Shown here: positions 15,159 through 18,428 of the stretch, one piece after another
Numbering within the stretch: position 1 is the stretch's first letter
Layout: every line of letters starts with the position of its first letter
NCBI GenBank assembly: GCA_004322205.1
Contig: SCSN01000015.1
Coordinates: forward strand, 1 to 34,543
Direction: 5' to 3'
Origin: Patescibacteria group bacterium
Lineage (GTDB): Bacteria > Patescibacteriota > Minisyncoccia > Phycocordibacterales > Zambryskibacteraceae
Length of the DNA: 34,543 nt
Notes under the pieces: generated by a model
What the model saw: only the letters and a program-made list of their open reading frames with translations
What the model was told of the DNA's origin: nothing
Database searches by the model: none
Position numbers and translations under genes: made by a program

Positions 15159-15186
15159 TTGACATTGCCCGGCTATTTGCTATACT
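15159..15186 (+). promoter_or_regulatory. Sigma70-type promoter
   Basis: TTGACA (15159-15164), 16-nt spacer, TATACT (15181-15186). Confidence 0.7.
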
Positions 15187-15192
15187 TGCGGT

Positions 15193-15265
15193 CGTGAGTT
15201 AGCGCGTGCTAGCTCCAAGCGAACGAATGTCTGCGTAAGCCCCCGCCTCGGCGGGGGTTTGCGTT
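15193..15265 (+). ncRNA. Candidate small RNA (~75 nt) between consensus promoter and intrinsic terminator
   Basis: No ORF; hairpin GAGTTAGC-gcgt-GCTAGCTC (15196-15215, one G.U) then terminator CCCCCGCC-tc-GGCGGGGG (15240-15257) + T-rich tail. Confidence 0.55.
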
Positions 15266-15359: not shown

Positions 15360-15480
15360 GCATATTGCGCTTGGTCGTGGCTAGCGGACGCACTCACATA
15401 GATATTCGTTTGGAGCCAGCCCCGCTAGCCGCGAGCGAACACAATGCCATTTTGTCCGTAAGGTGTAAGCTGTACAGTCA
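15360..15480 (+). ncRNA. Second candidate structured RNA, apparently related to the first
   Basis: 12-bp stem CGTGGCTAGCGG (15376-15387) / CCGCTAGCCGCG (15422-15433, one G.U); shares ordered blocks GGTCGTG, TAGCG, GCTAGC, AGCGAAC, AATG, CGTAAG with 15190-15238; TTTACA (15328-15333)/TAGTAT (15350-15355) possible promoter. 3' end not determinable. Confidence 0.4.
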
Positions 15481-15652
15481 CAAAATCGAGCACCCAGCAC
15501 CTGCTTAATTATTTTGTTTCTTTAGGTTCGGTTTTTTACGATATTTTTACTCTTTTTTGTTAATCATCTCTGCTTTTGTAGGTGCTGGGTTTCGCAAAAA
15601 TTTTTGCAAAATTTTATCGCTCAAGTTATCCACAGTTTTGTTTCAAAAATTG

Positions 15653-15680
15653 TTGTTTGTAAATGCGGACTATATGATAA
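15653..15680 (+). promoter_or_regulatory. Putative promoter for the basic micro-ORF
   Basis: TTGTTT followed ~17-20 nt later by TATGATAAT. Confidence 0.45.
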
Positions 15681-15786
15681 TGAATGAGTGGTCGAGTAAC
15701 TGCGCGTCGCATTCCCACTCGCGACGCTGCCAGAACTACGTTAGCAAGATAATTTCTCCGTGTGCAGTGTGCGCACACCAACGAAA

Positions 15787-15852
15787 ATGGCAAAAAGAAG
15801 GAAGGCAGCAAAGAAATCTCCTCGAAAGTCTTCACGCAGAAGAAGGAGATAG
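15787..15852 (+). CDS. 21-aa highly basic micropeptide MAKRRKAAKKSPRKSSRRRRR (not in supplied ORF track)
   Basis: Direct translation from ATG 15787 to TAG 15852; promoter-like sequence upstream and a perfect palindromic terminator 18 nt after the stop. Confidence 0.6.
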   Translation: MAKRRKAAKKSPRKSSRRRRR

Positions 15853-15869
15853 TCCTTGACGTCTCTCAA

Positions 15870-15900
15870 CTGCCCCCGCCATGGCGGGGGCAGTTTCTTT
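15870..15900 (+). terminator. Intrinsic terminator, perfect 24-nt palindrome
   Basis: CTGCCCCCGCCATGGCGGGGGCAG (15870-15893) followed by TTTCTTTTG. Confidence 0.8.
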
Positions 15901-15926
15901 TGTGCTAGAATGCCCAGGCGCTTTGT

Positions 15927-18428
15927 ATGGCCGTATCTTTATTCAAAAAACTTATAGGTGACGACAATAGCCGCGAGCTCAGGCGGCTCTCCCGAATCGT
16001 CGAATCTGTCAACAAACTGGAGCCGTTTTACCGGGCACTTTTAAATGATGAGCTCAAGGGCAAAACTTCAGAGTTCCAGAGACGACTCGCAGAGAACTCT
16101 AAACTCGACGAAATTCTTCCTGAAGCTTTTGCTTTGGTGCGGGAAGCCGCTCGTCGCACACTCGGTGAGCGACACTTCGACGTACAACTTATGGGCGGCG
16201 TCGTTCTCCATGAAGGGGGGATTGCGGAGATGCGCACCGGAGAGGGTAAGACGCTGGTGGCGACACTGCCGGTCTATCTCAACGCCCTCACGGGAGCCGG
16301 CGCACACGTTGTAACAGTCAATGACTACCTGGCGAGGCGTGATACTGTCTGGATGGGACAGATTTACGATTGCCTAGGTCTTTCGGTGGCGGTCATTACT
16401 CACGATGAGTCTTTTCTCTACGATCCCAGCCACACCGAAGGTGATCGGGAACGAGATGAACGGGGCAGCTTTCACGTTGTTCATGAGTTTTTGCGTCCTG
16501 TCTCCCGGCAGGAGGCCTACGCTGCCGATATTACCTACGGCACAAATAGCGAGTTCGGCTTTGACTATCTGCGCGACAACATTGAGTACGAAAAGAGCCA
16601 AATCCGTCAACGCAGCCACACTTTTGCCATTGTTGATGAAATTGACTCGATTCTCATTGATGAAGCTCGCACGCCGCTTATTATCTCTGCTCCGGCGGAG
16701 GATTCCGGCAGTCTCTATAGAACTTTTGCCGGAATCGCCAGGCAGCTTGAGCAGGACAAAGATTACACTGTTGACGAGAAACTTCACGCTATCACCATCA
16801 CAGAGCAGGGGATCAATAAAGCCGAACGGTTGCTCGGCGTCGGGAATATCTACACTGACCGCGGCATCAGATACGTCCACCACCTTGAAGCTGCCGTTAA
16901 AGCCAAAGCTCTCTTTCAGAGGGACAAAGAATATGTAGTGCGAGACGGGGAAGTTATTATTGTCGATGAATTTACCGGTCGTCTCCAGCCGGGGCGGCGC
17001 TGGTCGGAAGGGCTCCACCAGGCGATTGAAGCGAAAGAAGGAGTTGAAATTCAAAAAGAGTCACGTACTTATGCCTCCATAACCTACCAGAACTATTTCC
17101 GAATGTATCAGAAACTCTCGGGCATGACCGGCACCGCCGCCACCTCGGCGGAGGAATTCTACAAGGTCTATGGCCTGCGGACGGTGGTGATCCCGACTAA
17201 TAAACCGAGCACCCGCCTTGATGGAAACGACCTTATTTTCCAGACAGAGAGTGGAAAATTTCAGGCGGTCATTCGCAAAATTCAAGAGCTCAATACCAGA
17301 GGTCAGCCGGTTCTGGTCGGCACGGTCTCGATTGAGAAGAACGAGTTGCTCTCATCTCTTCTTTCGCGCGAGGGCGTGAAGCATGAGATGTTAAACGCTA
17401 AAAATCACGAACGGGAAGGGGAAATTATTGCCCAGGCAGGCAGACGGGGAGCGGTAACCATTGCCACCAACATGGCGGGTCGCGGCGTGGACATTAAACT
17501 CGGCGGCAATCCCGCTTCGCGGGAGGAGTATGAAGAAGTGAGGAGTCTCGGCGGGCTTTTCGTTCTGGGCACCGAGCGCCATGAGGCGCGGCGCATCGAC
17601 AATCAGTTGCGCGGCCGGTCGGGCCGGCAAGGAGATCCTGGCGGAACGCAGTTTTTTGTTTCCCTCGGGGATACCCTGATGCGCGTTTTCGCTTCGGATA
17701 CCATAAAGAAAATGATGGGGCGTTTTGGCATCCCGGAAGACCAGCCGATCGAGAATCGTCTGGTCACAAACGCTCTGGAGAAAGCCCAAGAGAAAATCGA
17801 GGGATTTCACTTTGATGCCCGCAAGCATGTCTTGGAATTTGACGATGTGCTCAATTTCCAGAGGAAGGTGCTCTATGAGCGGCGGCGCAAAATGCTTGTG
17901 GGCAGTGATGAGGAAGTTGAGCAATTTGTCAGCGAGCTTTTTGCTGGCGAGTCAGAGGAGAACCAAACAGCACTTACCCGCAAGCGAGAGGAACTTGGCA
18001 GAGAGCAGTTTCTTGCGATGGAGAGGGCGGTTGTTCTGCAGACAATTGATATGTACTGGATTGAACATCTCGAGGTCATGGATTATATGCGGGGCAGTGT
18101 CAACTTGCGAGCCTACGGCCAGCGCGATCCTTTAGTGGAATATAAAAGAGAGGGTCTGCGACTCTTTAAGGAGATGGAGGCGGCGGTGGAGGAGCAGATT
18201 GTTCGTCTCTTACCTCATCTCGGCGGCGCGGTTCGGCAAGAGGAGAAAAATCTTCAAGAAGTGCAGGAAGGAGCCTCTGGTCTTACCGCTCAAAGAGCTG
18301 CAGCAGCCGAGCTTAAGAGAGTCGGCCGCAACGACCCTTGCCCGTGCGGAGCGGTAAATCCTGCCACTGGCAAGGTCTATAAATACAAACACTGCGGATT
18401 GATTAACGCTCCGTATCATAAAGCTTAG
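15927..18428 (+). CDS. secA: Protein translocase subunit SecA
   Basis: 'MRTGEGKTLVATLPVYLNAL', 'VTVNDYLARRD', 'YGTNSEFGFDYLRDN', 'IVDEIDSILIDEARTPLIIS', 'GTVSIEKNELLS', 'IATNMAGRGVDIKLGG', 'LRGRSGRQGDPG', C-terminal zinc motif 'NDPCPCGAVNPATGKVYKYKHCG'. Confidence 0.98.
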   Translation: MAVSLFKKLIGDDNSRELRRLSRIVESVNKLEPFYRALLNDELKGKTSEFQRRLAENSKLDEILPEAFALVREAARRTLGERHFDVQLMGGVVLHEGGIAEMRTGEGKTLVATLPVYLNALTGAGAHVVTVNDYLARRDTVWMGQIYDCLGLSVAVITHDESFLYDPSHTEGDRERDERGSFHVVHEFLRPVSRQEAYAADITYGTNSEFGFDYLRDNIEYEKSQIRQRSHTFAIVDEIDSILIDEARTPLIISAPAEDSGSLYRTFAGIARQLEQDKDYTVDEKLHAITITEQGINKAERLLGVGNIYTDRGIRYVHHLEAAVKAKALFQRDKEYVVRDGEVIIVDEFTGRLQPGRRWSEGLHQAIEAKEGVEIQKESRTYASITYQNYFRMYQKLSGMTGTAATSAEEFYKVYGLRTVVIPTNKPSTRLDGNDLIFQTESGKFQAVIRKIQELNTRGQPVLVGTVSIEKNELLSSLLSREGVKHEMLNAKNHEREGEIIAQAGRRGAVTIATNMAGRGVDIKLGGNPASREEYEEVRSLGGLFVLGTERHEARRIDNQLRGRSGRQGDPGGTQFFVSLGDTLMRVFASDTIKKMMGRFGIPEDQPIENRLVTNALEKAQEKIEGFHFDARKHVLEFDDVLNFQRKVLYERRRKMLVGSDEEVEQFVSELFAGESEENQTALTRKREELGREQFLAMERAVVLQTIDMYWIEHLEVMDYMRGSVNLRAYGQRDPLVEYKREGLRLFKEMEAAVEEQIVRLLPHLGGAVRQEEKNLQEVQEGASGLTAQRAAAAELKRVGRNDPCPCGAVNPATGKVYKYKHCGLINAPYHKA

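Follow-up and report, generated by a model that had tools for sequence, protein, structure and literature searches.

Very small basic proteins exist in ribosomes, bTHX among them, and are similar in size and charge to the micro-protein described here. Histone H1-like nucleoproteins of the type of chlamydial Hc2 and Bordetella BpH1 (PF07382) combine lysine and arginine with alanine, threonine, valine and proline in repeats whose number sets their length, and they bind RNA as well (PMC2848022). The C-terminal KPAA domain of AlgP/PhaF-type proteins is a disordered, histone H1-tail-like polycation that binds DNA, and AlgP acts on polyphosphate granules (PMC9239181). A short ORF 5' of secA is familiar from SecM and RAPP-type arrest peptides, the presence of such peptides ahead of sec genes being a known theme (PMC12992588).

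The locus compared here with these systems lies in a stretch of 34,543 nt (the window, meaning all of the DNA analysed) from a 667-kb genome in 18 contigs, of which the closest named SecA relatives include Zambryskibacteria, Taylorbacteria, Nomurabacteria and Kaiserbacteria (Paceibacteria, CPR). Just upstream of secA, it contains the following features:

15626 to 15634, forward strand: TTATCCACA, a DnaA-box 9-mer of canonical sequence, which spans about -62 to -54 in the promoter of the micro-gene
15653 to 15658, forward strand: -35 element TTGTTT (family consensus aTTGTat), with TTG conserved here in 89-98% of aligned promoters
15676 to 15681, forward strand: -10 element GATAAT, separated from the -35 element by a 17-nt spacer
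15690 to 15694, forward strand: leader motif GGTCG, which 69 of the 76 leaders not belonging to the GTDB family have at most 130 nt before the start codon
15704 to 15727, forward strand: leader hairpin GCGTCGC...GCGACGC, recognized from the sequence and the transcript fold (z = -3.4)
15759 to 15778, forward strand: hairpin immediately before the start codon (GTGTGCGCACAC region), predicted by folding
15787 to 15852, forward strand: micro-gene, encoding a polybasic, H1-tail-like protein of 21 aa, MAKRRKAAKKSPRKSSRRRRR
15868 to 15895, forward strand: predicted intrinsic terminator of the micro-gene, a 12-bp stem followed by TCTTTT
about 15903 to 15911, forward strand: extended -10 element of secA (TGCTAGAAT), separate from the micro-gene
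15927 to 18428, forward strand: secA, a neighbour outside the unit (NCBIfam SecA equivalog, 1071 bits)

The initial annotation had proposed an ORF of 21 codons with 13 lysine and arginine residues, and translation from ATG (15787) to TAG (15852) gives exactly that: MAKRRKAAKKSPRKSSRRRRR contains 13 K/R among its 21 residues and no acidic residue, for a net charge of about +13. Another possible start, GTG at 15760, which would give 30 aa, was rejected in favour of the ATG because the codons upstream of 15787 vary in relatives. By the criteria of an ATG start, at least 13 aa, a K+R fraction of at least 0.42, and more than 85% of residues from the set KRAPTSVG, both strands of the window together contain this ORF and no other, where dinucleotide shuffles lead one to expect 0.05.

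Because a 21-mer of such composition leaves tblastn and HMM searches nearly blind, secA was located in relatives and the DNA upstream of it was read directly. An HMM search of the order with the peptide alignment was discarded as insensitive, having missed even most members of the family, and a tblastn match in genome G012 (E 6) was spurious, no such ORF being present there. A short polybasic ORF precedes secA in 24 of 25 regions from the same GTDB family (for example MAKKRKAAKRKPAKRKKAPARKRKASRRR and MAAKKRKAAKKTTKKKSSKKKRA), and an ORF of the Lys/Arg/Ala/Thr/Pro type lies 5' of secA on the same strand at 63 of the 89 loci sampled from the order, within 400 nt of secA in 57 cases. No such ORF was found near secA at the other 26 order loci, some of which are contig ends, nor at any of 54 secA loci outside the order, on the antisense strands or in shuffles. 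Conservation, controls and shuffles together rule out a chance ORF.

When the DNA was aligned by MAFFT without reference to frame, not one aligned base of the ORF fell out of frame, and the difference rates at codon positions 1, 2 and 3 of this nucleotide-only alignment were 0.207, 0.172 and 0.407, third positions being about twice as variable as the others. Twelve disjoint nearest pairs contained 34, 29 and 60 differences at the three positions (p = 2.8e-4), and indels within the ORF preserve the frame. The initial annotation would have abandoned the ORF if relatives did not keep the frame under codon-level constraint, and both are observed: the 21-aa ORF is a real protein-coding gene of a conserved, lineage-specific family. 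Orthologues range from 13 to 106 aa and 63% are below 30 aa, so that most members are shorter than the length limit of gene callers and the gene tends to be missed when ultra-small bacteria are annotated.

Among 100 distinct orthologues, the K+R fraction is 0.59 +/- 0.05 and aspartate and glutamate are absent, composition having been part of the search criterion for most members, as promoter and leader evidence was not. The choice between lysine and arginine does not merely track GC content, with which it correlates only weakly (rho 0.26). Orthologues of 60-106 aa occupy the same locus, and the long members (L033, L037, L132, L151) consist of repeats such as KRKPAAKKRKPAAKKKKVAKRKPA and KRKPAAKKRKPAAKK, with KRKPA/TAKRKPA units. 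The family thus displays the lysine-rich short repeats and length polymorphism of Hc2-type proteins, and these long orthologues strengthen the histone H1/Hc2-like character that the initial annotation had seen in the 21-mer; formal membership is another matter. Pfam HC2, with its cut-off of 40 bits, gave the long orthologues only 11-12 (E 0.2-0.5), and the set of PF07382, NF038052 and NF038053 gave them 9.6-11.9 bits against cut-offs of 40-135 and the 21-mer nothing, so the family, Hc2/AlgP-like in kind, is not filed as a member. Most of its products are below 30 aa whereas Hc2 has 165-237 aa, no locus, promoter or leader is known in common between Hc2 and the micro-gene, and the micro-protein is free-standing whereas the KPAA domain of AlgP/PhaF is a tail on another domain. 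Pfam, NCBIfam and PDB searches with the micro-protein returned no match, and no description of the family was found in profiles, structures or the literature (mostly open-access journals).

The promoter-like element TATGATAAT noted in the initial annotation is present and corresponds to the -10 region (GATAAT, 15676-15681); three further elements that it did not report are the TTATCCACA box, the GGTCG at 15690-15694 and the extended -10 of secA. The DNA upstream is strongly conserved: the aligned promoters have the consensus AGTTATCCACA - 18 nt - TTGTat - 17 nt - GATAATtaa, and the promoter of the micro-gene takes the form of TTATCCACA followed 41 nt 3' by the GATAAT of a TTGTwT/GATAAT promoter. 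TTATCCACA, the canonical DnaA box (PMC8203912), occurs in 81 of 100 leaders, in one orientation throughout and usually 39-42 nt from GATAAT (mode 41), as against 1 of 73 distal control regions, none of 54 secA loci outside the order, and none of the 26 order loci that lack the ORF. The arrangement TTATCCACA-N38-43-GATAAT occurs 23 times in 31 family genomes, 20 of these at the micro-gene locus, and 20 of the genomes have one such promoter each at that locus.

Class-I activators sit near -58, and the centre of the TTATCCACA box is likewise near -58. The DnaA of the source genome has a complete domain set, including PF08299, with an intact DHTTV motif, so that, as at DnaA-regulated promoters, a canonical box at a fixed position is found together with a DnaA that has its DNA-binding domain. 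The micro-gene promoter holds one box, not a cluster, and the box is not taken to mark oriC because in genome G032 the GC-skew sign changes near dnaA (about 50-98 kb), away from the micro-gene locus at about 803 kb. The promoter is probably under DnaA control, as these sequence features suggest, and the box could be read by a factor other than DnaA.

Throughout the source genome (G000), there are 15 TTATCCACA boxes compared with 4 for the reversed control, and four of the others precede TATAAT promoters by 31-39 nt (C11:50647, C11:67148, C14:71644 and C15:51361; loci L253, L254, L257 and L258). The box is therefore not unique to the micro-gene, and these additional promoters possibly constitute a small DnaA regulon in CPR.

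The structured 5' region perceived in the initial annotation was recovered by folding of the transcript (-80.6 kcal/mol, z = -3.4). GGTCG lies well 3' of the -10 element and the arm that follows it pairs with an upstream arm in 54 leaders, where pairing is stronger between native arms than between swapped ones (-7.2 vs -5.1 +/- 0.22 kcal/mol). A GTCGC/GCGAC hairpin is found in most leaders of the family, and relatives have hairpins of differing sequence (for example CCCGAGGTACCTCGGG) at the same position before the start codon. The leader (15690-15780) thus contains GGTCG with its pairing arms and a pre-start hairpin, with no clear Shine-Dalgarno sequence; Rfam gave no match to it at the gathering threshold, and the sub-threshold matches were weak and mostly on the terminator. 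The better pairing of native arms and the strong structure of the entire transcript might be taken to mean that a structured RNA of about 170-200 nt is the functional product and the ORF secondary, but this is very unlikely, given the codon-position bias, the frame-preserving indels, the extension of the ORF to 106 aa in some genomes, and leader hairpins that differ among families where the composition of the peptide is constant. The conserved RNA leader may tune translation of the micro-gene.

Downstream, the perfect 24-nt palindrome (15870-15893) lies 18 nt 3' of the stop codon as initially described, and terminator-like hairpins follow 83 of 100 orthologues compared with 6.7 in shuffles. 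An extended -10 stands between terminator and secA at all 24 family loci. This boundary bears on the idea that the ORF is a SecM-like leader or arrest peptide regulating secA, for which its place immediately before secA in most genomes and the known theme of such peptides upstream of sec genes (PMC12992588) would speak. The predicted terminator and the separate secA promoter argue against co-transcription with secA; unlike SecM/RAPP, the product has neither a signal sequence nor a conserved arrest motif, its length varies freely, and the unit, with its own promoter and terminator, moves without secA.

Genome G091 has a complete unit (TTGTCCACA box, promoter, GGTCGG and ORF) INDEPENDENCE from secA, 5' of a glutamate dehydrogenase-type gene (gdh), and in G079 the unit is about 3 kb from secA; copies not linked to secA are also found in G339, G278, G321 and G336. 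In G339, G336 and their relatives, which belong to other families of the class and not to the order, the unit is 5' of an hpf-type gene (PF02482). A search by promoter alone of 286 genomes of the class gave 19 places, of which 18 have a polybasic ORF downstream and the remaining one is a second, degenerate copy whose genome has an intact one too; the same search of 348 genomes of other classes gave no match. With some of these copies far from secA, and separate promoters where the two genes adjoin, an arrest peptide for secA has been largely refuted already and is extremely improbable. Judging by the relocated units and the promoter search, the unit is a free-standing gene of the class, and its neighbourhood with secA is synteny. 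Conservation of promoter, leader and terminator, with relocation of the unit as a whole, likewise bears out its initial designation as a transcription unit of its own.

G321 has two copies of the unit, C3:9620 (L316) and C5:38921 (L330), of which the former keeps promoter and leader around an ORF that reads MVKRKKKKVVVINQ... and is apparently degenerating. At L314, L317 and L330, the micro-gene is followed by the hpf-type ribosome hibernation gene. In family f133, the gene that follows encodes a pyruvoyl-dependent arginine decarboxylase.

Electrostatic binding of nucleic acid best accounts for a polycation that is free of acidic residues and whose length drifts between 13 and 106 aa through repeats. 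The micro-protein would be a miniature of the lysine- and arginine-rich tail of a histone H1/Hc2-type nucleoprotein, disordered and binding nucleic acid, with the nucleoid as its most likely target. We infer, from a box near -58, a DnaA with its box-binding domain and a locus that is not the origin, a DnaA-linked nucleoid polycation. Its short, highly structured, terminator-bounded mRNA would be transcribed from a promoter that DnaA, bound at the single upstream box, could stimulate or gate, so that the polycation may be supplied in step with replication and help to package DNA, neutralizing and condensing it, and possibly other nucleic acid, alongside HU. HU is encoded in 26 of 31 family genomes, including the source genome, so that a missing HU is not the reason for the gene and a nucleoid role of the micro-protein would be additional. 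Taken as a whole (a genuine gene, a disordered polycation, a terminator-bounded mRNA, a DnaA-timed promoter, and DNA condensation alongside HU), this account stands somewhat above an even chance.

That polycations of such kind bind RNA also counts against a nucleoid role, and with Hc2-type proteins doing so, a ribosomal or a general counter-ion role is possible. A micro-protein held by charge in rRNA, in the manner of bTHX, bL37 or bS22, and made from a regulated leader would have the small basic ribosomal proteins as precedent, a unit located 5' of the gene for ribosome hibernation factor in other orders, and a structured leader with a conserved motif resembling those of autoregulated ribosomal protein genes. 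Such a role is unlikely: a range of 13-106 aa with tandem repeats is unlike the occupant of a fixed ribosomal site, where such changes in length would hardly be tolerable and from which extreme length variation sets the family apart; it is not obvious why a ribosomal gene should have a DnaA-box promoter; PDB has no match; and, in agreement with the initial annotation, no bTHX match was obtained from Pfam/NCBIfam profiles at E<=1. Less likely still is a general polycation or counter-ion, polyamine-like or binding polyphosphate or membranes, with no dedicated role at DNA or ribosome. It would accord with a composition without obvious sequence-specific constraint, with the action of the H1-tail-like AlgP on polyphosphate granules (PMC9239181), and with the arginine decarboxylase gene downstream in f133, but would not predict the DnaA-box promoter. 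The length range and the DnaA-box promoter favour the nucleoid, and the hpf neighbour keeps a ribosomal role alive.

A broader reading, to which we give rather less than an even chance, is that an order-wide class of replication-coupled micro-histones with a DnaA-box promoter and a new RNA leader exists in Paceibacteria. If so, it would be a previously undescribed class of bacterial micro-histones with production tied to the replication initiator, analogous to the coupling of eukaryotic histone supply to S phase, and a candidate for DNA organization in reduced cells, linked to replication through the DnaA box. A conserved gene is in any case revealed where annotation of ultra-small bacteria tends to overlook it, and since members can be recognized by their promoter signature whatever their length, mapping and testing of the family can begin immediately.

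Two other elements lie 5' of the unit in the window. At about 15375-15440, a second conserved hairpin consists of GCACTCACATAG-N-TGGAG flanked by stem arms that differ in sequence; it is 5' of the unit at 13 of 194 secA-flanking loci (besides the window, L032, L037, L038, L144, L154, L175, L180, L181, L188, L191, L199 and L204), has no match in Rfam, and is possibly a new small RNA motif. At 15159-15260, a strong sigma-70-like promoter (TTGACA-16-TATACT, 11/12) is followed about 60 nt 3' by a GC-rich hairpin and T-run. With no ORF clear there, a short RNA may be encoded between an O-antigen-ligase-like gene and the micro-gene.
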